This document shows positions 20,888 through 32,709 of a stretch of DNA of 64,000 nucleotides, one piece after another. How positions within the stretch are numbered: the stretch's first letter is position 1; each line of letters starts with the position of its first letter. The DNA lies in assembly GCA_021373115.1 (NCBI GenBank), contig JAJFTI010000030.1, positions 1-64,000 of the forward strand. The letters are read 5' to 3'. The notes under the pieces were generated by a model. That model was not told the origin of the DNA, made no database searches, and worked only from the letters and a program-made list of their open reading frames with translations. The position numbers and the translations under genes were made by a program. This DNA is from Eubacteriales bacterium (GTDB taxonomy: Bacteria > Bacillota > Clostridia > Christensenellales > CAG-138).

Positions 20888-21571
20888 ATGCGGTTATTGG
20901 TGGTAGAGGACGACAAGGACCTCAGCTGTGCGCTTAAATCGCGATTCACGCAGGAGGGCTTTGAATGCGATACTTGCGAAGACGGCCTTGACGCCGGATA
21001 TTATCTGAAGAACGGCGGTTATAACGCCATGATTCTGGATCGCATGCTGCCGGGAAGGGACGGACTGACGATTCTGCGCGAAATGCGGCAGGGAGGCGAC
21101 GCAACGCCGGTGCTCATGCTCACCGCGCTGGAAACGGTGAAGGACCGCACGGACGGGCTGGACGCGGGTGCGGACGATTACCTGGTGAAACCGTTCGCCA
21201 TGCCGGAACTGCTTTCGCGCATCCGCGCGCTGATTCGGCGTCCGCCCGCGATCCGCGGCGGCGAAACGCTTTGTTTTGAAGATCTGTCCCTCAATCCTTC
21301 CCAGTGCAAACTCGTTTGCGGAAAGAACGCGCAAACCCTCTCCCGCAAGGAGAGCGCGGTGCTGGAGCTGTTTTTCGAGCACCCGGATCGGGTGCTCTCC
21401 CGTGCGGAACTACTCTCGCGCGGGTGGGGCGGCGACGAGGCGGTGGAAGACGGAAACGTGGATAACTACATCTATTTTTTACGCCGCAGGCTGAAGGCGG
21501 CCGGAACGCGCGCGGCGATAAAAACGGTGCACGGCGTTGGATACCAACTGACGATGGAATGCGACGAATAG
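20888..21571 (+). CDS. OmpR-family response regulator
   Basis: 227 residues. Receiver domain with acidic pocket (E7/D8/D9 region), phosphoacceptor D51 (MILDRMLPG) and conserved K near 100 (DDYLVKPF). A winged-helix DNA-binding domain ends in KTVHGVGYQL. GGGAGGAG precedes the ATG. It overlaps the sensor kinase frame and probably controls the transport/export operon downstream. Confidence 0.95.
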   Translation: MRLLVVEDDKDLSCALKSRFTQEGFECDTCEDGLDAGYYLKNGGYNAMILDRMLPGRDGLTILREMRQGGDATPVLMLTALETVKDRTDGLDAGADDYLVKPFAMPELLSRIRALIRRPPAIRGGETLCFEDLSLNPSQCKLVCGKNAQTLSRKESAVLELFFEHPDRVLSRAELLSRGWGGDEAVEDGNVDNYIYFLRRRLKAAGTRAAIKTVHGVGYQLTMECDE

Positions 21572-21594
21572 AGGCGGCACAGGAGCGGGCGGAT

Positions 21595-22869
21595 ATGGAA
21601 GAGCGAAAACTGCGGCTACACCTGATACGGATCTATGTCGTCACCATAGCCGCAATCCTTGCGGCGCTGCTGGCGGCGATCCTGCTGTTTTCGGTTCGGG
21701 AAATTGAGCAAAAAAACCGCGAAACGTTTACCACGCTGCTTACCGCGCTGGGGGACGAACTCCAAACCAATAATATTGTTCGGCACAGCGAGCTTCGAAG
21801 ACAGGAACAGGAAAACCGCCTGTTCCTTCTGGTAAAGGATAATGGGGAAGCGCTTCTTTACAACAGTCTGGACAGCACCGGAAAGGAAGACCTCCTGAAA
21901 ATCATCGAACAGGCGGCGCGCGAGGAAGGATTCGACACGCAAAGCCTTCCGCTGACGAACGCCAGGCGCACGTCCCCGGTTCGCCCGTACTCGGTAAATG
22001 GAGAGCGCTATCTTGGCGCGGTGAGCATTCTCCCGCTTGCAAACGGGTATCGTACGCTGACCCTGGCACAACGTCTGGATGCTTCATGGTCCGGCAGCGT
22101 TGCGTTCTACTGCATTCTCTACTTCGGCGGCGTGTTTTTGCTTGGCGGCGTCGGCGTCATGCTGATCGACCGTGCGCTGCAGCCTGCCCTGGAAAGTCGA
22201 AAGCGGCAGAATCAGTTTATCGCCGCGGCGTCCCATGAACTGCGCTCCCCGCTTGCGGTGATTTCCGCAAACGCCGAGATGCTGCCGGTCGTCACTCCGG
22301 AAGGCGCGGCTACGGCGGGCATTATTACTGCGGAGTGTGCGCGGATGTCCCGCCTGATCGGCGATTTGCTGATGCTGGCATCCGCAGACGCCAAGTCATG
22401 GACGTTCATCCCGGAACCGATTGAGCTGGACACCCTGCTGCTGAACGTTTACGAAGCATATGTTCCGCTCTACCGGAAAAGCGGCTGTACGCTGGAGCTC
22501 CGGCTGCCGGAAAATTCGCTTGCGCGGGTTCGGGGAGATGCGGAACGGCTGAAGCAGGTGCTTGGAATCCTGCTGGAAAACGCGTTGTCCTATGGCGTGA
22601 CGCAGGATCGCCGTTCGGTTGAGCTCAGCGTATCGACCCAGAGGCAGCGCGTAAGCATCTGCGTGACGGATCACGGGGACGGACTTTCCGCAGAGCAGAA
22701 AGCGCATGTGTTCGACCGGTTTTACCGGGCGGATACGTCCCGCAGGGAGAAGCAGCATTTCGGTCTGGGGCTTTCCGTTGCGCAGGAGCTGGTTGCGCTG
22801 CAAAAAGGAACGCTGGATGTATTCGATACGGCGGGGGGCGGATGCACGTTTCGCATTCTGCTGGGATAA
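21595..22869 (+). CDS. Two-component sensor histidine kinase
   Basis: About 424 residues. Two membrane helices (around residues 8-32 and 162-187) flank an extracellular sensor loop of ~130 residues; no clear HAMP domain follows. The dimerisation/phosphoacceptor motif is ASHELRSPL with H214. The ATPase domain shows N- and G-boxes (LLENALSYG, FGLGLSVAQEL). A start at 21559 is also possible and would overlap the regulator by 13 bp. Partner of the regulator at 20888. Confidence 0.93.
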   Translation: MEERKLRLHLIRIYVVTIAAILAALLAAILLFSVREIEQKNRETFTTLLTALGDELQTNNIVRHSELRRQEQENRLFLLVKDNGEALLYNSLDSTGKEDLLKIIEQAAREEGFDTQSLPLTNARRTSPVRPYSVNGERYLGAVSILPLANGYRTLTLAQRLDASWSGSVAFYCILYFGGVFLLGGVGVMLIDRALQPALESRKRQNQFIAAASHELRSPLAVISANAEMLPVVTPEGAATAGIITAECARMSRLIGDLLMLASADAKSWTFIPEPIELDTLLLNVYEAYVPLYRKSGCTLELRLPENSLARVRGDAERLKQVLGILLENALSYGVTQDRRSVELSVSTQRQRVSICVTDHGDGLSAEQKAHVFDRFYRADTSRREKQHFGLGLSVAQELVALQKGTLDVFDTAGGGCTFRILLG

Positions 22870-22897
22870 ATTGATTTGAAATCGAAGGATGATACGG

Positions 22898-22925
22898 GCG
22901 CGCTCAAAAGCGCGCTCTTTTCATT
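22898..22925 (+). terminator. Intrinsic terminator after sensor kinase
   Basis: GCGCGCT-CAAA-AGCGCGC followed by TCTTTTCATTTT. It separates the two-component genes from the binding-protein operon. Confidence 0.8.
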
Positions 22926-22998
22926 TTAGATTAGAGGATTTTTAGAGATTTGTTGGATAGAATAGGGGGCGTAAGAAACAGGAGGATGATACATTTTT

Positions 22999-25215
22999 AT
23001 GAAAAAAGCGATATCCATTCTGCTCTGCGCCGTTCTTTTGGCCGGGGCGATCGGTTGCAGTGGCCCTTCGGGTGCAAGCAACTCAAATGCCGCAGATGCC
23101 GCGACCGGGCGGTATATGGAACAGGTCATCGACCTGCCGATTCCGGAAGGATTCAGCGAGCAGTATGTCATCGGTTTGGCTGCGCTGGAAAACGGCGTTG
23201 AGGTATTTACCAATACGTATGCCGATAACAAAGACGGAACATCAAGCGCGCGTTATTTCCGTTATACGATCCTGGACGACGGATCAGTAAAAACCGCCGA
23301 AGAACAATGGCTGAACGACCTTGCGGTGGACGGCGGGAACGAAATGCGCGTGATTCGCGCAAAAGACGGCGCACTCTATATGTTTTATAGCGGGTTCGGC
23401 GAAAATTACCAGATTCAGCCGCATTTTATCGTGAGCCGCGACGACGGAAAAACCGGCACGGAACTGACCGGCGACGGAATTTCAACCATCGCAATTGCCA
23501 ACAGCTTCGGTGTGCTGGACGACGGCTCCATCGCGTATACCGACTATTTTAACGCGAACCTTGGGCTGCTGGATCAAAACGGCAGCATGGTGGAACAGTT
23601 GGAGGGTGAAACAGGAAAGGCAACGCCGACGCTCGCCGCTTCCGGCAGCCGCATCGCAACCATTGCGCCGGAGGCAAAGGCGATTCGCGTGTATGACCGC
23701 GCGGATGGAACCAGCGCGAATTACGAGTATGCCATTGCCGAAAACAGCTCCGTCATCATGGCGTTTTCGGCGGACGGCGCGCTCTATCTTTGCGACGCAA
23801 CGGGTATCTACCGCCATACGCAGGATGGAACGCTCTGGGAGCGGATTATGGATGGAGGCACCTGCAACCTCGGATTGCCGTCCTTCTATCCCGGTAATAT
23901 GGTGATTCGCGCCGGAAGCCCGGATACGATTTATCTTTGCGACTCAAGTTCGGTCTTTCGCTACTGGTATGACGAAACCGCGCCTGCCGCCGCAAGCGAG
24001 GAACTGAATATCTTCTCGCTCAAGGAGAACGAAACCGTTCAGCAGGCGGTCGTCGCATTTAACCGCGCGCAGAGCGAAGTGCTCGCGATTTACACCGTGG
24101 CTATGGGCCAGGACGCGGGCGGCACGGAACAGGACTATATCAAAGCCCTCAATACGGAGCTTCTCGCGGGAAACGGGCCGGATGTGCTGATTCTGGATGG
24201 ACTGCCCGTTGAGTCCTATGTTCAAAAAGGCGTTCTTGCGGAAATCGGCGGAATTCTGGATCAGGCGGAGGTCGTACTGCCGAATATCCGCACCGCTTCG
24301 CAGTCTCCGGACGGAAAGCTCTATGCAATGCCAACAGGCATTCGCGTACCGCTGGCCTATGCCAGCGGCGATCCGGACAGCGCGTTTTCCTCGCTCTCTG
24401 CGCTGGCGGACGCCTGCGAAGCCTCCGGAACCGAACCGCTGCTCTCCAGCACGGCATTCAACTACCAGATGCTTGCGGAAGTGCTGCTGAGTTACTATGG
24501 CGGCGATCTGTATCAAAACAAGGACGGCGCGGTAAACGCGTTCCTTTCGGACATCGGCCGTATCAGCAAAGCGATCGGCGCAGACGAAGTGCTTTGCGAA
24601 GGCTGGGAAGCGGCGCAGGGCAGCACACAGGAAGAACTGCTGAAAGTCGTGCGCATGCAGAACGGCGGGCCGCAGATCTGGGCGAACGCGACGAACCGGG
24701 CGTCGGCAGCGCTGTTTCTGCCCATGGGGTCGCTGTATGGGGGGATGATCAATCTCGCCGCGGCGGAACAGCTGAACAAAACGTTCTGCGGAATCAACAA
24801 ACAGTATGAACCGGTTGGAATCGTTGGCGTTAACCGCGCCGGCAAACATACGGATGCTGCGGCATCGTTTCTGAACACACTGTTCTCTTACGATGTGCAG
24901 AGCGGCAATAAATTCGCCGAGCAGTTTCCGGTGAACCAGAAGGCAATCGAAGAAACGCTGAACCGCGTGGATAATACCATTTCAAGCGGCATGTCGATTG
25001 ATCCGGAGATCACCATCTTTGCGGAATGGCCTTCCGAGGCGATGCGTGCGATGCTGGGCTCCATGATAAAGGAACTCAACCGTCCGCTCGCGACCGATCA
25101 TACCCTCAGCGAGATGCTGGTTCCGTTGATCGTGTCCTATCTCGATAGCAGCGATACGCTGGAAACCGCCGCGGGGAAGATGGAAAGCGTGATTTCCACC
25201 TATTTATCGGAATGA
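22999..25215 (+). CDS. Very large extracellular solute-binding lipoprotein
   Basis: 738 residues, against ~420-550 for common CUT1 binding proteins. Lipobox cysteine is C20 (AGAIGC). Residues ~30-320 form an extra N-terminal module of short beta-rich repeats with recurring DGS/DGT/DGA turns (VLDDGSIAYTD, AKDGALYMFY, SADGALYLCD), suggesting a beta-propeller. A solute-binding domain follows from about residue 330 (QAVVAFNRAQSEVLAIYT; GNGPDVLILDG) to the end. AGGAGG precedes the ATG. Its stop overlaps the first permease start (ATGA). Confidence 0.85.
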   Translation: MKKAISILLCAVLLAGAIGCSGPSGASNSNAADAATGRYMEQVIDLPIPEGFSEQYVIGLAALENGVEVFTNTYADNKDGTSSARYFRYTILDDGSVKTAEEQWLNDLAVDGGNEMRVIRAKDGALYMFYSGFGENYQIQPHFIVSRDDGKTGTELTGDGISTIAIANSFGVLDDGSIAYTDYFNANLGLLDQNGSMVEQLEGETGKATPTLAASGSRIATIAPEAKAIRVYDRADGTSANYEYAIAENSSVIMAFSADGALYLCDATGIYRHTQDGTLWERIMDGGTCNLGLPSFYPGNMVIRAGSPDTIYLCDSSSVFRYWYDETAPAAASEELNIFSLKENETVQQAVVAFNRAQSEVLAIYTVAMGQDAGGTEQDYIKALNTELLAGNGPDVLILDGLPVESYVQKGVLAEIGGILDQAEVVLPNIRTASQSPDGKLYAMPTGIRVPLAYASGDPDSAFSSLSALADACEASGTEPLLSSTAFNYQMLAEVLLSYYGGDLYQNKDGAVNAFLSDIGRISKAIGADEVLCEGWEAAQGSTQEELLKVVRMQNGGPQIWANATNRASAALFLPMGSLYGGMINLAAAEQLNKTFCGINKQYEPVGIVGVNRAGKHTDAAASFLNTLFSYDVQSGNKFAEQFPVNQKAIEETLNRVDNTISSGMSIDPEITIFAEWPSEAMRAMLGSMIKELNRPLATDHTLSEMLVPLIVSYLDSSDTLETAAGKMESVISTYLSE

Positions 25216-26087
25216 TACGCGCTCGAAATAAGAGAATGGGCAGGGGGGAGGCGCGCGCTGCGCTCGCCTTCCTCGCCCCGAGTCTGATCGGTATTTTCGG
25301 CATGGTGCTGCTGCCGACGGCGGATGTAATCCGAAGGTCGTTTTTTTCCGCGATGGGCAATACGTTTGTCGGGCTGGAAAACTACAGAGCCATTTTCGAA
25401 AACGAATCCTTCCGGCTCGCGGTGGGCAATACGATCCGCTTTCTGCTGGTTTGCATTCCGCTGCTCCTGCTGCTTTCGCTCGCAACCGCGCTCATGCTCT
25501 ACCGGCGGAAACGGCTGCAGGATCTGTTCCGAACGACGTACCTGCTGACGCTGGTCGTTCCCGTTACGAGCGTCGTGATGATTATTCAGACCGTGTTTCA
25601 TAAAAACGGGCTGCTCTCCGCGCTCTGCGCTCTGCTGGGATCGACTCCGCAGGACTGGCTCAACAGCGAATTTGCGTTTCTCGTGCTAGTGGTCTGTTAC
25701 CTCTGGAAGTACTTCGGCTATAACGTAATCCTTTGGCTTGCGGGACTTGCGGCGATTCCGGATTCCTATTACGAGGCCGCGCGTGTGGACGGCGCAAACG
25801 AAATCAAATGTTTTTTCTATATTACGCTGCCGCAGCTGGGCGGAACGCTGTTTATTACAGGCGTTCTTGCGCTGATCAACTCCTTTAAGGTGTTTCGCGA
25901 GGCCTACCTTGTTGCGGGACGGTATCCGAACAGCAGCATCTATATGCTGCAGCATGTGCTCTCCAACTGGTTCTCCAATTTGGATATGCAGAAGATCAGC
26001 GCGGCGGCGGTGCTGCTCATGCTGTCGATCCTGCTGGTGGTTTTTGCAGCGCAGCGCCGGATGGATCGAAAAAAGGAGGGCGCATGA
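25212..26087 (+). CDS. CUT1-type sugar ABC permease (UgpA/LacF-like)
   Basis: 291 residues with six predicted membrane helices. The ATPase-contact EAA loop is YYEAARVDGANEIKCFFYIT near residue 187. It couples translationally to the binding protein upstream (ATGA) and to the second permease downstream (ATGA). No ATP-binding subunit is encoded in the operon, as often seen when a shared MsiK/MsmK-type ATPase is used. Confidence 0.92.
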   Translation: MIRARNKRMGRGEARAALAFLAPSLIGIFGMVLLPTADVIRRSFFSAMGNTFVGLENYRAIFENESFRLAVGNTIRFLLVCIPLLLLLSLATALMLYRRKRLQDLFRTTYLLTLVVPVTSVVMIIQTVFHKNGLLSALCALLGSTPQDWLNSEFAFLVLVVCYLWKYFGYNVILWLAGLAAIPDSYYEAARVDGANEIKCFFYITLPQLGGTLFITGVLALINSFKVFREAYLVAGRYPNSSIYMLQHVLSNWFSNLDMQKISAAAVLLMLSILLVVFAAQRRMDRKKEGA

Positions 26088-26935
26088 AAATAAAACGCTG
26101 GCAGCCCGCTTCCTTCGTTGTGCTGTTTCTATTGGCACTGCTGGTTTGGTCGCCGCTTTGGATGCTGATTACCGGCGCGCTGACGCCGACGGACGAACTG
26201 GATCGGCATCTCTCCGGCGTGCTGGGCGCATCCGGCGAGCTGGCGAGCTGGAGCGTGCTTCCGAACCGGATCACTTTCAAACATGTGGTGGAACTGCTGC
26301 TGGACACGCCCGCGTTCTTTCGCGTATTCTGGAATTCCTGCATTCAGGTGTTCCCGGCCGTGGCGGGACAGATTCTCGTTGGCGCGCCGGCAGCGTGGGC
26401 GCTGTCGCAACTGCGGTTTCGCGGGCGAAACGCGCTCTTTCGGCTCTATATCGTGCTGATGATCCTGCCGTTTCAAGTTACCATGGCGTCGAGCTATATC
26501 GTGCTCAACCGGCTTGATCTGATCGACACTCCCCTTGCGATTATCCTGCCCGCCATGTTCTCCGCGTTTCCGGTCTTCATTATGACAAAATTCTTCGGCG
26601 GCATTCCGCGGGAAATGCTGGAAGCGGCGCGAATGGACGGCGCAAGCGAATGGTCGCTGTTTTTTCGAATCGGGCTGCCGCTGGGACTGCCGGGCGTTCT
26701 TTCCGCCGCACTGCTTGGCTTTGTGGAAGGATGGAATGCGGTGGAGCAACCCATTACGTTTCTGAAAACCGCTTCCTTAACACCGCTTTCCGTGTTTTTA
26801 CCCGCAACAACGGTGTCGAACGCGGGTATATCGTTCGTTTCCGCCGTCGTTACGCTGCTTCCTGCGGTTCTGATTTTTCTGCTGGGGCAGCAGTATCTCG
26901 AGCAGGGCATTCTTGCCTCGGGAATCAAGGAGTAA
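26084..26935 (+). CDS. CUT1-type sugar ABC permease (UgpE/LacG-like)
   Basis: 283 residues, six predicted helices. EAA loop MLEAARMDGASEWSLFFRI near residue 180. The periplasmic segment after helix 1 (LTPTDELDRHLSG) is typical of the second permease of CUT1 systems. Partner of the permease at 25212; the adaptor gene begins 5 bp after its stop, so all are one operon. Confidence 0.92.
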   Translation: MKIKRWQPASFVVLFLLALLVWSPLWMLITGALTPTDELDRHLSGVLGASGELASWSVLPNRITFKHVVELLLDTPAFFRVFWNSCIQVFPAVAGQILVGAPAAWALSQLRFRGRNALFRLYIVLMILPFQVTMASSYIVLNRLDLIDTPLAIILPAMFSAFPVFIMTKFFGGIPREMLEAARMDGASEWSLFFRIGLPLGLPGVLSAALLGFVEGWNAVEQPITFLKTASLTPLSVFLPATTVSNAGISFVSAVVTLLPAVLIFLLGQQYLEQGILASGIKE

Positions 26936-26940
26936 TTAAA

Positions 26941-28035
26941 ATGATGTCTGAAGAAAAACAAACAGAAGCGAAGGAGCGGACGTTTTCTCGGAAAGTCGGC
27001 CGTGTGCTGATTTGGTTTTTTGCGGTGATGCTGCTGCTGACGTTTCTTTCGCGTGCGGCAAGCGATGCGCTCAAAGCCAAGGTTTCGGTTGGCTACACGA
27101 GCACCGGATCGCTGGATCTAAGCGTGAACGGCACCGGAAAATGGGCGAGCGGCGAATCGCTGTTTTTCACGACCTATTTCACGCGCCGGATTGCCAAGGT
27201 ATTTGTGAAGCCCGGAGAATCGGTTCAGGAGGGCGACCCGCTTTTTGCCTACGACGTTTCCACCGTAACCGGCGGAAAAGACGTATCCAAACAAAAGGTA
27301 GCCGCCGCCGAGCGGGCGCTGGAGAAAGCAAAGACGCTTTTAAAGGAGCAGCCGGATTCCGCTTACGCCGCAAGCACGGTGGAAAACGCCGAACAGTCGC
27401 TCCTGCTTGCCCGGTTTACCTATGAACAGTATGTTGCGCTGCAGAACGGCGGCGTGGTTCGCGCGCCGTTTTCCGGCACGGTGATCGCTTGCGACCTTGC
27501 CGCCGGAAAGGCCTCCGTTTCCGGAACCAGCGGGCTTGAGGTTGCTTTGGGCACGCCGCAGCTTACGATGCAGATTCCGAAAAAAGAAGCGGAGCGCATT
27601 ACAATCGGGGACGAGATCACCCTGCTGCGCGATGGAAAGCAGGAGGATCAAACGCTGAGCGTACGCTCGATCTCCGCGCTGGACGCAAACGATACCGTTA
27701 CCGTAATTGGCGGCGGAAACGGCGGCACGGAGCGGGAGATTGGCGCTTCGCAGGACTGGAAAATCCGAAAAAAATCCGGGCAGTACGACACCTGTGTTCC
27801 GCTGGAGGCGCTTCGGCAGGGCGGCGGGGACACGTACTATGTATTCGTGATTCGTGAGAAATCGACGATTCTCGGCACGGAACTCATGGCCGTTCAAGTG
27901 GATGTTAACCTGCTCGCGCATGACGACAAGCGCGCCGCGGTGGACGGCGAACTGACGAGTGAAGACCGCCTCGTAACCGCCTGCTCCAAGGAGATTGTCG
28001 ATGGCGACTTGGTGGTACTGCAAAATGCGGAATAA
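26941..28035 (+). CDS. HlyD/MacA-like periplasmic adaptor (membrane fusion) protein
   Basis: 364 residues. One N-terminal membrane anchor (about 20-40), a barrel-sandwich half (IAKVFVKPGESVQEGDPLFAYD), a coiled-coil hairpin (about 118-155), the returning half (GVVRAPFSGTVIACDLAAG) and beta-barrel domains. Such proteins link an inner-membrane exporter to the outside or, in Gram-positives, assist MacB/FtsX-type ABC exporters. The start ATG 26941 follows the permease stop; the longer frame from 26650 is only an upstream extension. It overlaps the next gene by 11 bp. Confidence 0.88.
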   Translation: MMSEEKQTEAKERTFSRKVGRVLIWFFAVMLLLTFLSRAASDALKAKVSVGYTSTGSLDLSVNGTGKWASGESLFFTTYFTRRIAKVFVKPGESVQEGDPLFAYDVSTVTGGKDVSKQKVAAAERALEKAKTLLKEQPDSAYAASTVENAEQSLLLARFTYEQYVALQNGGVVRAPFSGTVIACDLAAGKASVSGTSGLEVALGTPQLTMQIPKKEAERITIGDEITLLRDGKQEDQTLSVRSISALDANDTVTVIGGGNGGTEREIGASQDWKIRKKSGQYDTCVPLEALRQGGGDTYYVFVIREKSTILGTELMAVQVDVNLLAHDDKRAAVDGELTSEDRLVTACSKEIVDGDLVVLQNAE

Positions 28036-29086
28036 ACGGGTTTGGCTGCGCGCCGCGCTGCTCGCGGCGGTATCGCTTACCAGCTGGCTGATGGCGCTGG
28101 GGTGCGCAAACCGGCTTGCGTCGCAATACGCCGGGGTAAGCGTTCGTCTTGCGGAAGCCGCCGTCACGGCAAAGCAGATTCGGCAGGCGAACGAACAGAG
28201 CGCGAGCTCCGGACTGGTCTGTAGCGCGGCCTGGACGCGGGGACTGTCAATTCTGGCTGAAAACGCGGCGTTCGGCCTGGAAACAAAGCTCAGGATTCTT
28301 TCCGTCTACGGGGATATGCGCGAGGTTGCGCCGATGAAACTGCTCTGCGGCAGTTTTCCGGTGGAGGATGATACAAGCGGCTGCCTGATCGACGCGAAAT
28401 CCGCTTGGAAGCTGTTTCACTCCGGCGACTGCACTGGCGCGAGCGTGTCCGCCGGGGATGCGCGGTATACGGTTCGCGGAATTGTGGAGACATACGAACC
28501 GGTGCTTCTCATTCGCAACCAATCGGCAAAGTTTGAGAACCTCGAATTCGCCATGCCGGATCCTTCGGCGTCCAGGCAGGCGATTGAAACATATCTCTAC
28601 CGCTGCGGGAGCAGCGCGGAGAGCGAAATGCTCGTTGAGAACGGGCTTGCGGCAAGGATTGTTCGAGGCGCCGCTTGGATTCCGCTGTACCCGGCCGCCG
28701 CCGCGGCTGCGGTTTGGCTGTTTTTTTGCGCCTGGAACAAACGCGGCAGCGCGCGGTCCTCTCTGCCTTACTGGATCGCGGGTGCTTCTATAGCGGCGGC
28801 TCTGGTATGCCTGCTTGTGCGAACGGCATATTGGCCGCAATCCTTTCTGCCGACGAAATGGTCGGACTTCTCCTTCTGGCCGCGGCTGATCGAGGGCTGG
28901 CGGGAGCAGTGGAAGGCGCTTTCGCTGGCAACGCCCCTGCCAAAGGAGATACAGTTCTTCCAATCGATCCGCCGAATCGCTTTCCTGCTGACGGTTGCCT
29001 TGCTGTCGGGCGGATGGGGCGTTTCGTCGATGCGGCTTGCAGCGGCAAGGCGCCGCTTGCCTTCTGGAAAGATGAATGAAACATAA
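28025..29086 (+). CDS. MacB-like membrane protein (periplasmic core domain between TM1 and TM2-4)
   Basis: About 353 residues. One N-terminal helix, a ~200-residue extracytoplasmic domain with MacB-PCD features (MREVAPMKLLCGSFP, CLIDAKSAWKLF, YTVRGIVETYEPVL) and three C-terminal helices. Topology therefore mimics MacB/FtsX permeases, but the usual FtsX helices are not well conserved and no ATPase gene follows. GTG-GT sequence before ATG 28025 offers a ribosome site inside the adaptor gene, whose stop is 28035. Presumably forms a complex with the adaptor. Confidence 0.65.
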   Translation: MRNKRVWLRAALLAAVSLTSWLMALGCANRLASQYAGVSVRLAEAAVTAKQIRQANEQSASSGLVCSAAWTRGLSILAENAAFGLETKLRILSVYGDMREVAPMKLLCGSFPVEDDTSGCLIDAKSAWKLFHSGDCTGASVSAGDARYTVRGIVETYEPVLLIRNQSAKFENLEFAMPDPSASRQAIETYLYRCGSSAESEMLVENGLAARIVRGAAWIPLYPAAAAAAVWLFFCAWNKRGSARSSLPYWIAGASIAAALVCLLVRTAYWPQSFLPTKWSDFSFWPRLIEGWREQWKALSLATPLPKEIQFFQSIRRIAFLLTVALLSGGWGVSSMRLAAARRRLPSGKMNET

Positions 29087-29199: not shown

Positions 29200-29260
29200 A
29201 ATATGCGCTCCGGTGCGCCCGAATACGCGGGCGAAACTGTGCGGAAGCCCAGAGGTCGCT

Positions 29261-30505
29261 TTGCCAATAACACAGCCTGCGAAAAGCATACTGAACAATC
29301 CGTTTCTTTCGCTGAAACATAAGAACTACCGGTATTATTTTTGCGGTATGTGCGTCTCTACGATCGGCACATGGATGCAGAACACCGCGCAGCCTTGGCT
29401 CGCCTATTCGCTGACCAAGTCCGCGTTGCTGCTCAGCGTCGTCAGCGCGCTGCAGTTCCTTCCCGCCCTGCTGTTTTCCCTCTTTGCGGGCGTGCTGATC
29501 GACCGTTTGCCCAAGAAGAAAATGCTGATTGTGACGCAGACGCTTTCGCTGCTGATCACGTTCGGATTATGGCTGATATCCAAGTTCGGCGGAATTCAAT
29601 ACTGGCATCTGCTGATTTCCGCAACGCTTCTCGGCTTTGTCAACACGCTAGACATGCCGCTTCGCCAGGCGTTTGTCGTGGAAATGGTCGGGCATGAGGA
29701 TCTGACGAACGCCATTGCGCTCAACTCGCTGACCTTTAACGCCGCGCGGCTGATCGGCCCCTCCCTTGCGGGCATCGTTATGGGCGCGCTTGGCGTACCT
29801 GCGTGTTTTCTGATGAACTCGCTGAGCTTTTGCGCGGTGCTGATCAGCCTCTTTTTCATCCACCCGCATCCGGTGGTGCCGAACGGGGATACCGTGCGGC
29901 TGGGTGTGATGGAGAGCATCCGTGAGGGGCTGCGGTACATTCGCTGGGACGAGGATCTGTTTCTTTCGATGCTGTTTATCGCCGTCGTCTCCACGTTTGC
30001 AATGAATTACAGCGTCAGCGTACCGGTATTTGCGCAGCAGATCCTTGGTCTTGCGGAGACGGGATACGGCTTTCTGCTCTCCAGCCTCGGCGCGGGCGCG
30101 CTGCTTGGCGCGCTGCTCGTTGCGTCGCTGAGCAGGAGCGGGCCTAGGCGGTTTATCCTGTATGTGCTGCCGGCTATTACGGGGATTGTGCTGATTTTCA
30201 TCGGTTTGACAAGCGACTTTGCCGAAACGAGCGTTGCGCTCGCGCTTGGCGGATTCCTGTTCGTGACCTATCTTTCCACCGCAAATTCGAATATTCAAAT
30301 TCGGACGGATGACCGCTTTCGCGGCCGCGTGATGAGCGTGTACTCGCTGATTGTCGCGGGGTCTTCGCCTATCGGCAATTTGTTTGTCGGCGCCGCGGAC
30401 AGCTGGTTTGGCGCGCGCATGGGGTTCATTGCCTGCGGCGTTGCGGTGCTCGCATTCGTGATACCGCTTTATATTAAGATGGCGGCGGGGCGAAATCGCG
30501 TATAA
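29261..30505 (+). CDS. Major facilitator superfamily exporter (MFS_3 / EntS-like)
   Basis: About 414 residues with 12 predicted helices. The motif GVLIDRLPKKKMLI between helices 2 and 3 and NALDMPLRQAF-like NTLDMPLRQAFVVE are typical of the drug/siderophore exporter subfamily. I propose a TTG start at 29261 (AGAGG upstream) because the promoter lies after the ATG at 29144. The N-terminus before NPFLSLKHKNYRYYF is otherwise unconserved. Substrate unknown. Confidence 0.85.
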   Translation: MPITQPAKSILNNPFLSLKHKNYRYYFCGMCVSTIGTWMQNTAQPWLAYSLTKSALLLSVVSALQFLPALLFSLFAGVLIDRLPKKKMLIVTQTLSLLITFGLWLISKFGGIQYWHLLISATLLGFVNTLDMPLRQAFVVEMVGHEDLTNAIALNSLTFNAARLIGPSLAGIVMGALGVPACFLMNSLSFCAVLISLFFIHPHPVVPNGDTVRLGVMESIREGLRYIRWDEDLFLSMLFIAVVSTFAMNYSVSVPVFAQQILGLAETGYGFLLSSLGAGALLGALLVASLSRSGPRRFILYVLPAITGIVLIFIGLTSDFAETSVALALGGFLFVTYLSTANSNIQIRTDDRFRGRVMSVYSLIVAGSSPIGNLFVGAADSWFGARMGFIACGVAVLAFVIPLYIKMAAGRNRV

Positions 30506-30697: not shown

Positions 30698-31375
30698 TTG
30701 ATCCGGATTCTGCTGGCGGATGACGACGCGCGCATCCGTTCGATCATTCGGGAATATGCGCAGGCCGAGGACTGGACGTTTGACGAGGCCGGAGACGGGG
30801 AAGAGGCGCTGAGTCTGTTTGCTGCGGGGGGCTACTCGCTTGTCGTGCTGGATGTGATGATGCCGCATTTGGACGGGTGGGGCGCACTGAAGCAAATCCG
30901 GAAAAGCAGTTCGGTTCCGGTCGTCCTGCTCACCGCGCGCAACGAGGAATACGACCGCCTGCTCGGGTTTGAACTCGGGGTGGACGACTATATCGGCAAG
31001 CCCTTCAGCCCGCGGGAGTTGGTTGCGCGCATGAAGGCGCTGCTCAAACGCTCCGGCGCGGTTCCGGGAGCGGGAAACGTGTTTGTTTTGGGCGGTTTGC
31101 GCGTGGATTCTACCGCGCGGACGGTTCAGATTGACGCGGAAAGCGTGAATCTCAGCCCGAAGGAGTTTGATCTGCTGGCGTTTTTCGTTTCAAAACCGGA
31201 AGTTGCGTTTACGCGGGATCAGCTTCTGAACCATGTGTGGGGGTATGATTTCTTTGGCGACGCGCGGACGGTGGACACGCATGTGAAGAGCCTTCGAGAA
31301 AAGCTGGGCGTTTACCGCGAGCATATTGTGACCGTCTGGGGAACCGGTTACCGGTTTACAGGAGGCAGGGCATGA
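30698..31375 (+). CDS. OmpR-family response regulator
   Basis: 225 residues beginning with TTG (GGGAGGG upstream). Receiver phosphoacceptor D52 (VVLDVMMPH), acidic triad D8-D10, conserved lysine in DYIGKPF. The C-terminal winged helix contains RTVDTHVKSLREKLG and VWGTGYRF. Four-base overlap with the kinase gene. Its targets may include the converging Fe-S/ferritin-like genes at 32754-34912, which is inference from position only. Confidence 0.95.
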   Translation: MIRILLADDDARIRSIIREYAQAEDWTFDEAGDGEEALSLFAAGGYSLVVLDVMMPHLDGWGALKQIRKSSSVPVVLLTARNEEYDRLLGFELGVDDYIGKPFSPRELVARMKALLKRSGAVPGAGNVFVLGGLRVDSTARTVQIDAESVNLSPKEFDLLAFFVSKPEVAFTRDQLLNHVWGYDFFGDARTVDTHVKSLREKLGVYREHIVTVWGTGYRFTGGRA

Positions 31376-32709
31376 AGCGGATTTCTGCGAAACTGACGCT
31401 TGCGTTTCTCGGCATGGCAGCGCTTGCCGTCGCGCTGATATGGCTGATACAGGCGGTGTTTCTGAATGACAGTTATCTCAACCGGCGGGTGGAAAGCATT
31501 GATCAGGCGGCCGATTCTTTTTCGATTGCGGCCAAACCGGATTATGCCGCGCTGGAAAGCGCGCTCAATGTAAGCCTGCTTGCAGTCAACGATCAGGGAA
31601 GCGTTGTGTACCAGTCCGACGGGCTGCCTATGCGCGGGCAGATTGTCAAGCGCATTCCGGAATTAGCCGCCGAGGCGGGCGGCGGGGTGGAATACCTGCA
31701 AACAGAGACGGATGAAGCACGCTACGCGCTGATCAGCCGCACGGTCGAGGGCGGAACGCTGCTGATTGTGTTTTCCCTGGTCGATGTTTCCGAGGCCTCC
31801 CGCGTGCTGCTCCAGCAGTTGTGGATCATCACCGCCGTGCTGCTGATTGCGGCTCTGCTGCTCTCGGTATTCCTCTCCCGTCTGTTCTCCCGCCCGATCG
31901 TCGCCGTGACAAAGGCGGCAAAGGCCATGGCGGCCGGGAATTATTCGATCAAGACGCCGGTTACCGCCCGGGATGAGATTGGCCAGCTGACGCAGGCGCT
32001 CAACGAGCTGGGCGACGAACTGGGAAAGGCGGAGGAGCTGCGCCGGGAACTGATTGCCAATGTTTCGCACGAGCTGCGCGCGCCGCTGACGATTATCCGC
32101 GGCTTTGCGGAGACGGTTCGGGATGTAACCTGGCCGAACGAGCAGAAACGGACGGAACAGCTCAACGCAATCAGCAGCGAGTCTGCGCGTCTCGGCGCGC
32201 TCGTAAGCGATATTCTGGATTACTCCAAGCTGCAGTCCGGCGCGGAACCAATGAACCCTGTCGTTTTTTCCTGCGCGGAAACGCTGGGCTGCATTCTGGG
32301 GCGTTTTGAAATCGAGGCGGGCAAGCGCGATATCGCGCTGGAGCTGGACTGCCGCAAAGGGGAAATCCGCTTTGACCGCGCGCAGTTTACGCAGGTGATG
32401 AACAATCTTCTGGACAATGCCATTCGGCATGCAAAGCCGCGTTCCCGCGTCCGCATCGCCTGTGAACCGCTTGAAAAAAACATGCGGATTTCAATTGAAA
32501 ACGCGGGCGAACCGATTCCGCCGGAGGAACTGCCTAAAATATGGGATCGTTACCACCGCGCGCCGAAGACCGGCGAAGCGGGCGGCCTCGGCACGGGGCT
32601 TGGGCTCGCGATTGTCAAGAGCATACTGGAACGCCATAGCGTGGCTTACGGCGCGGCAAGCGACGAAACGGGGACCGTATTCTGGTTTGAGACGATGGCA
32701 AACGCGTAA
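31372..32709 (+). CDS. Sensor histidine kinase with HAMP domain
   Basis: 445 residues. Two membrane helices (about 8-27 and 144-165) enclose an external loop of ~115 residues. HAMP (SRPIVAVTKAAKAMAAGNY), then NVSHELRAPL with H233, then ATPase G-box GTGLGLAIVKSI. Complete and unremarkable; cognate to the regulator at 30698. Confidence 0.95.
   Translation: MKRISAKLTLAFLGMAALAVALIWLIQAVFLNDSYLNRRVESIDQAADSFSIAAKPDYAALESALNVSLLAVNDQGSVVYQSDGLPMRGQIVKRIPELAAEAGGGVEYLQTETDEARYALISRTVEGGTLLIVFSLVDVSEASRVLLQQLWIITAVLLIAALLLSVFLSRLFSRPIVAVTKAAKAMAAGNYSIKTPVTARDEIGQLTQALNELGDELGKAEELRRELIANVSHELRAPLTIIRGFAETVRDVTWPNEQKRTEQLNAISSESARLGALVSDILDYSKLQSGAEPMNPVVFSCAETLGCILGRFEIEAGKRDIALELDCRKGEIRFDRAQFTQVMNNLLDNAIRHAKPRSRVRIACEPLEKNMRISIENAGEPIPPEELPKIWDRYHRAPKTGEAGGLGTGLGLAIVKSILERHSVAYGAASDETGTVFWFETMANA

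Follow-up and report, generated by a model that had tools for sequence, protein, structure and literature searches.

CUT1-type permeases encoded together with a MacA-like adaptor and a MacB-fold protein in a gene block conserved across Bacillota

Genes and predicted proteins of the locus

We analysed a 64,000-nucleotide stretch of a Eubacteriales genome (GCA_021373115.1, contig JAJFTI010000030.1, positions 1 to 64,000), hereafter the window, which carries a run of seven genes, all on the + strand and all exactly at the positions given in the original prediction. The run opens with an OmpR-family response regulator (RR, 20888-21571; Response_reg 8e-26, Trans_reg_C 2e-19) and a sensor histidine kinase with an extracytoplasmic domain (HK, 21592-22869, or from an alternative start at 21559 that overlaps RR; HisKA 4e-14, HATPase_c 1e-21), in which the domain scan gave no HAMP match. 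The terminator predicted 3' of HK was recovered as an intrinsic terminator at 22896-22917 (+ strand), with a 9-pair stem, 7 G-C pairs and a U-rich tail, and was the strongest in the scanned region. Beyond it lie a lipoprotein with an N-terminal beta-propeller and a CUT1-type solute-binding domain (SBP, 22999-25215), two CUT1 permeases (P1, 25212-26087; P2, 26084-26935), a MacA-like adaptor (ADP, 26941-28035) and a membrane protein of the MacB/YknZ fold (MAC, 28025-29086). These genes are spaced as had been claimed, with ATGA overlaps at 25212 and 26084, a 5-bp gap before 26941 and an 11-bp overlap between ADP and MAC, and no ATPase gene is encoded in the operon. Downstream of it we also noted an MFS_3 efflux-type transporter (29237-30505) and a second, unrelated RR-HK pair (30698-32709).

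By domain models and by sequence, both permeases are BPD_transp_1 proteins with EAA loops: P1 (4e-21) carries the loop EAARVDGANEIKCFFYITLP, and P2 (2e-14), which is UgpE/MalG-like, the loop EAARMDGASEWSLFFRIGLP. SBP matched SBP_bac_1 above the Pfam cut-off (9.2e-7), and its AlphaFold2 model (pLDDT 78) has a beta-propeller at the N-terminus and a binding-protein domain after it. In Foldseek searches the binding domain was closest to the sugar-binding protein CbpC of Clostridium thermocellum (7x0o, 3e-12), while the propeller half matched beta-propellers (2z2p, NHL and Pizza); a C-terminal Y-x-x-E pattern is invariant in the SBP alignment (A2).

ADP comprises one TM helix, a short hairpin, and barrel-sandwich and C-terminal domains. 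Its matches to the RND_mfp (4e-14) and HlyD models stayed below the curated cut-offs, and the profile of its family, built from alignment A3, retrieved the MacA structure 4dk0 (1.4e-15), which identifies it as a MacA-like adaptor. The TM helix is among the most conserved parts of the protein: its signature FAVMLLLTFLSRA (27016-27054, + strand) is kept in most system ADPs, reading FFAxMLxFTxLSRAAD near the window's branch and LTFFSNT or LTFFSNTIxN in distant relatives, and is missing from non-system adaptors, eight loci of which showed nothing similar. Since this is stronger conservation than a mere anchor needs, the helix probably makes a specific contact within the membrane. The hairpin differs in length, being short in the window and up to several hundred residues long in other members, and adaptor hairpins in some Lachnospiraceae carry low-complexity repeat insertions (GGNGSTGTGGSI and GNTNTGN; L010:7340-9631 and L023:3262-5520).

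For MAC, an AlphaFold2 model computed with 24 relatives (pLDDT 90) has TM1 at residues 2-34, an extracytoplasmic domain at 38-205, and TM2, TM3 and TM4 at 206-238, 243-267 and 306-344. Foldseek matched it to MacB (5gko, 1.8e-11), to the YknZ domain (5f9q, 5.6e-9) and to a MacB-like protein of S. pneumoniae (5xu1). The match of MAC itself to MacB_PCD (1e-3) is below the cut-off, and 14 of the 24 relatives match this model, the best at 7e-12. The extracytoplasmic core and four-TM topology of MacB are thus present in MAC by structure prediction, Foldseek and the Pfam matches of relatives. MacB has its major coupling helix, which links it to the NBD, between TM2 and TM3 (PMC5985334); at this place the model of MAC has a cytoplasmic loop of four residues (28739-28750, + strand), and the stretch is short in the 24 relatives too, with insertions in a few. 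The coupling motif EIGxRKAxGA occurs in 22 of 25 distinct ATPase-adjacent MacB-like permeases versus none of 58 distinct system MACs, and two of the three motif-less controls (L060 and L062) are really members of the system with a UgpC neighbour. No MacB-type NBD of its own, fused or adjacent, accompanies MAC, whereas the genome's canonical operons do include one; the original prediction of a MacB topology without its own ATPase partner was in this respect correct. As modelled, MAC keeps the body of MacB but no longer has the link known to join MacB to a motor.

An alignment of MAC relatives (A1) also displayed a KWSDFSFW motif in the extracytoplasmic TM3-TM4 loop (28856-28879, + strand). We rejected it as a universal MAC signature, because the peptide had served as a search pattern and its prevalence is partly an artefact: among members collected without this bias, near ones have KWSDFSFW or KWSDFDFW and distant ones have no such motif.

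The pair of ADP and MAC resembles MacAB, YknXYZ and SpMacAB (5xu1; PMC5985334) in that a MacA-like adaptor precedes a protein of the MacB fold that has TM1, an extracytoplasmic domain and TM2-TM4. It differs from these pumps in the CUT1 permeases, in the SBP that usually accompanies it, in the TM signature of ADP, and in the lack of a MacB-type ATPase and of a coupling helix, so that two defining features of a MacAB pump, the NBD of its own and the coupling helix, are missing.

Conservation of the block in Bacillota

A first search, made with short MAC peptide patterns alone, yielded 25 loci in Clostridia, nearly all with RR, HK, SBP, P1, P2, ADP and MAC as far as the contigs reach. Because these loci had been picked by MAC peptides, the search was repeated with the ADP profile on 391 whole genomes of Clostridia, taking E <= 1e-25 as a strong match. 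Strong matches were found in 34 of the 391 genomes and in 17 of 223 genera. In the loci fetched from them, P1 or P2 adjoins ADP everywhere except at L098, where the contig ends, and a MAC-like protein lies 3' of ADP everywhere except at L086. Among 398 Bacillota genomes, clear members again carried the entire block, and the weakest matches proved to be RND or EmrAB adaptors of the ordinary kind, which lack permeases. Once near copies and a spurious second ADP call (L141) had been discarded, MAC stands directly 3' of ADP in 62 of the 63 loci with ADP and permeases across Bacillota, mostly overlapping it or at a distance of at most 35 bp. Because the MAC profile scores no higher in distant loci than for ordinary MacB proteins, distant MACs were recognised by their position and by the missing coupling motif.

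One locus breaks the block (L006, 2341-5407), with SBP and MAC divergent and neither permeases nor ADP. A recognisable SBP is absent within range at seven distant loci (L073, L089, L091, L107, L110, L138 and L141). In genus g178, where no SBP of the family is near, a lipoprotein of 327-340 aa is encoded 3' of MAC (L089:9378-10361, L091:9432-10430 and L107:4074-5096) and may replace it. We saw no natural fusions among ADP, MAC, P1 and P2 in the ORFs of the collected loci, and annotated relatives in plasmid records were weak matches at most.

To place the permeases, a tree was built that set 60 P1 proteins of the system against 23 further CUT1 permeases, taken from six genomes. The system P1s grouped at 100/100, save one long-branched outsider (G108 C8) that itself belongs to a P1-P2-ADP locus, so that the system permeases form essentially one clade and the association appears to be old. 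A strict EAA pattern matched part of the distant P1s; it was too strict, and its counts carry no weight.

The co-occurrence of SBP, ADP and MAC homologues that the original prediction had proposed as a check was thus found, with the block kept across Bacillota. It had also named two observations that would speak against it, and neither was made: in the loci sampled, ADP and MAC of this family did not turn up regularly in the absence of permeases, nor was a standard MacB operon serving the set encountered. Two transporters that are only neighbours, the one a CUT1 importer and the other a MacAB-type pump in decay, would account for the origin of the parts from two families and for the ordinary MacAB pumps found nearby in some of the same genomes (L008 and L009). 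Conservation over the phylum, the essentially single permease clade, the overlapping genes, the shared promoter (below), the intact reading frames and the conserved signatures already contradict this reading, which we regard as highly improbable. They support the view that the gene set is not a chance neighbourhood and that a single system comprises the parts of importer and of exporter type. In the earlier proposal of a single machine rather than two unrelated transporters, it is this one-system part that stands, on block conservation, the permease clade and the dedicated promoter.

The two-component system and its promoter

Between the terminator and SBP lies a composite promoter of the form TTAGAGA-N4-TTAGAGA-N9-TANNNT (22931-22963, + strand). 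In the window it consists of a direct-repeat box, TTAGAGG-attt-TTAGAGA (22931-22948), a putative binding site of RR that has one exact copy in the window's genome and is conserved in relatives, and of a -10 element, TAGAAT (22958-22963), 9 bp 3' of the box, with TANNNT at the same offset in relatives. This layout of a box followed by a -10 element is that of PhoB-like activation. As a promoter with a response-regulator-type repeat follows the terminator, the latter divides transcription units, not systems.

In the 26 loci with a nearby two-component system the box, with at most one mismatch allowed, lies 5' of system genes 33 times and at other places twice, where 2.9 would be expected in all; the 38 locus rows without such a system have it once. 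These counts come from related loci, which are only partly independent of one another, and it was in the window that the motif was initially noticed. TANNNT stands exactly 9 bp past the box in 33 of 33 cases and in 0-4 cases at any other offset. In 24 genome entries (about 20-22 distinct genomes) the composite pattern gave 34 distinct sites, one of them in the window's genome, compared with 3 for a backward control pattern. Every one of the 34 lies at the module, where the promoter stands before SBP and P1 units, or, in G566 C12 and G1067 C53, in the gap that separates RR from a same-family SBP. This confinement to the module and to SBP-sensor pairs indicates that the two-component system is dedicated to this system, and the adjacent pair is accordingly predicted, from the sequence of the promoter, to control the window's operon through it. 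A stand-alone SBP-sensor unit was also seen at L213:4102-7168, where a second RR-HK pair and a divergent same-family SBP share the promoter and no permeases are present.

RR orthologues (44-50% identity) adjoin most loci of the near subfamily. Over the whole locus table an RR or HK is found within 9 kb in 26 of 64 rows, many of them from other two-component families; as these families differ or are absent near distant members, the two-component system belongs to the window's subfamily and not to the core.

Bce modules likewise place a type VII fold beside a two-component system, which controls its own transporter, and BceAB controls BceS. The resemblance to BceAB-BceRS lies in the type VII fold of MAC beside RR and HK. 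BceB spans the membrane with ten TM helices and has an ATPase of its own; the present system, unlike BceAB, has CUT1 permeases, an SBP and an adaptor, and the model of MAC shows four TM helices. Compared with a BceAB-like arrangement, in which a type VII permease with its own ATPase regulates the kinase, the two-component system is present and the ATPase absent. A solute-binding protein is also linked to a two-component system in CuaD-CuaSR of Ruminiclostridium cellulolyticum, which controls a sugar ABC importer and for which we know of no adaptor or MacB-like protein.

On the model of BceAB, SBP, P1/P2, MAC and ADP might form a complex that detects a ligand and controls HK, with transport secondary. 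The confinement of the promoter to the module or to SBP-TCS pairs would fit such a sensor, as would the second SBP of L213, which faces its own RR-HK pair, and the lack of catabolic partners: no consistent catabolic enzymes lie beside the loci, and the regulon is the module and the SBP-TCS pairs alone. Weighing against it are the 26 of 64 rows, many with other families of regulators, and since distant members do without the two-component system, sensing through it is not the core function. We consider a primarily sensory role unlikely.

The ATPase and possible modes of action

The absence of an ATPase noted in the original prediction applies to the operon; it does not extend to the system as a whole, for in relatives a UgpC/MalK-type (CUT1) ATPase adjoins MAC. 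Such a gene lies directly 3' of MAC in at least ten loci (L012, L066, L069, L104 and L128-L133), and all three of these ATPases that were scanned exceeded the NCBIfam UgpC cut-off. No MacB-type ATPase was seen adjoining a system MAC in the collected loci. The window's genome, which is 89% complete, has at least 16 CUT1 P1-type permeases and a single OB_MalK-type ATPase, above the same cut-off and orphaned among unrelated genes; the search for an orphan ATPase suggested earlier thus returned one of UgpC type. We also considered a MacB-type ATPase encoded elsewhere and rejected it, as the canonical MacB-type operons of the genome have their own.

An orphan of this kind is the arrangement of the multitask ATPases MsmX of B. 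subtilis and MsmK of S. pneumoniae, which energise CUT1 importers (PMC7658222), so that the orphan is probably the missing ATPase of the set and would serve P1/P2. The system shares with MsmX/MsmK-dependent importers the SBP_bac_1 domain, the two EAA-loop BPD_transp_1 permeases, the operon without an ATPase and the orphan UgpC-type ATPase; it differs from them in having ADP, MAC, the propeller of SBP and a dedicated two-component promoter, and in its own permease clade. At the gene level it departs from what a CUT1 importer should have only in where the ATPase is encoded. The core is P1-P2-ADP-MAC with UgpC, to which SBP is usually added.

We put forward, with about equal confidence for and against, that these parts form one machine: a CUT1 importer powered by a shared UgpC/MsmK-type ATPase and bearing an unpowered extracytoplasmic assembly of MacA/MacB-like proteins. 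The ATPase shared by the cell would power import through P1/P2, and ADP and MAC would sit on the outer face of the importer with no NBD of their own. Because MAC has lost the element that drives MacB, the two are most likely an extracytoplasmic guide or docking tower, which the TM helix of ADP and MAC would hold in the membrane against P1/P2. The propeller-bearing SBP would deliver cargo to the tower, and from there the cargo would cross the wall zone to reach the permeases; in addition, SBP probably acts with HK in sensing the ligand. A physical complex, the direction of transport, the role of the tower, the SBP-HK contact and a saccharide-like cargo are what we infer here. The poorest fit to an importer lies in the missing catabolic neighbours and the one-locus regulon, which are unusual for a nutrient importer.

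The same parts could instead work outward, towards the envelope, with UgpC on P1/P2 driving MAC and ADP sideways in the membrane to push or extract a substrate outside, as in MacAB. MAC keeps the extracytoplasmic domain and TM arrangement of MacB and ADP is MacA-like, although the usual drive is closed to MAC; the conservation of the ADP helix is as expected of a force-transmitting contact, and in ten loci UgpC genes lie directly 3' of MAC. The SBPs beside most loci, however, argue for import, and no precedent is known in which an importer of type I drives a fold of type VII; we hold an outward machine to be improbable. Somewhat less doubtful, yet still tentative, is a hybrid ABC machine in which the UgpC/CUT1 motor drives, through intramembrane contacts, a MacB-fold partner without an ATPase link of its own. 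If true, one ATP cycle would move cargo through both the MacA-like tower and the membrane, in a class of ABC systems joining type I and type VII folds.

A limited search of open-access full text found no description of this combination, in line with the original prediction. To our knowledge, no protein of the MacB fold has been described that is conserved despite lacking the ATPase interface and that adjoins sugar-type permeases. The system would represent a new solution either for fitting out an importer to suit the Gram-positive envelope or for powering the MacB fold, a question that is directly testable because the system is common and occurs in culturable species such as Anaerocolumna aminovalerica, and the promoter offers a ready reporter for finding the ligand. 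In one genome group (f58; L068, L092, L097, L099 and L101), a GntR-type regulator, an ABC ATPase and a large multi-TM protein are encoded directly 5' of P1-P2-ADP-MAC in the same orientation, which suggests an added ABC-2-type exporter.
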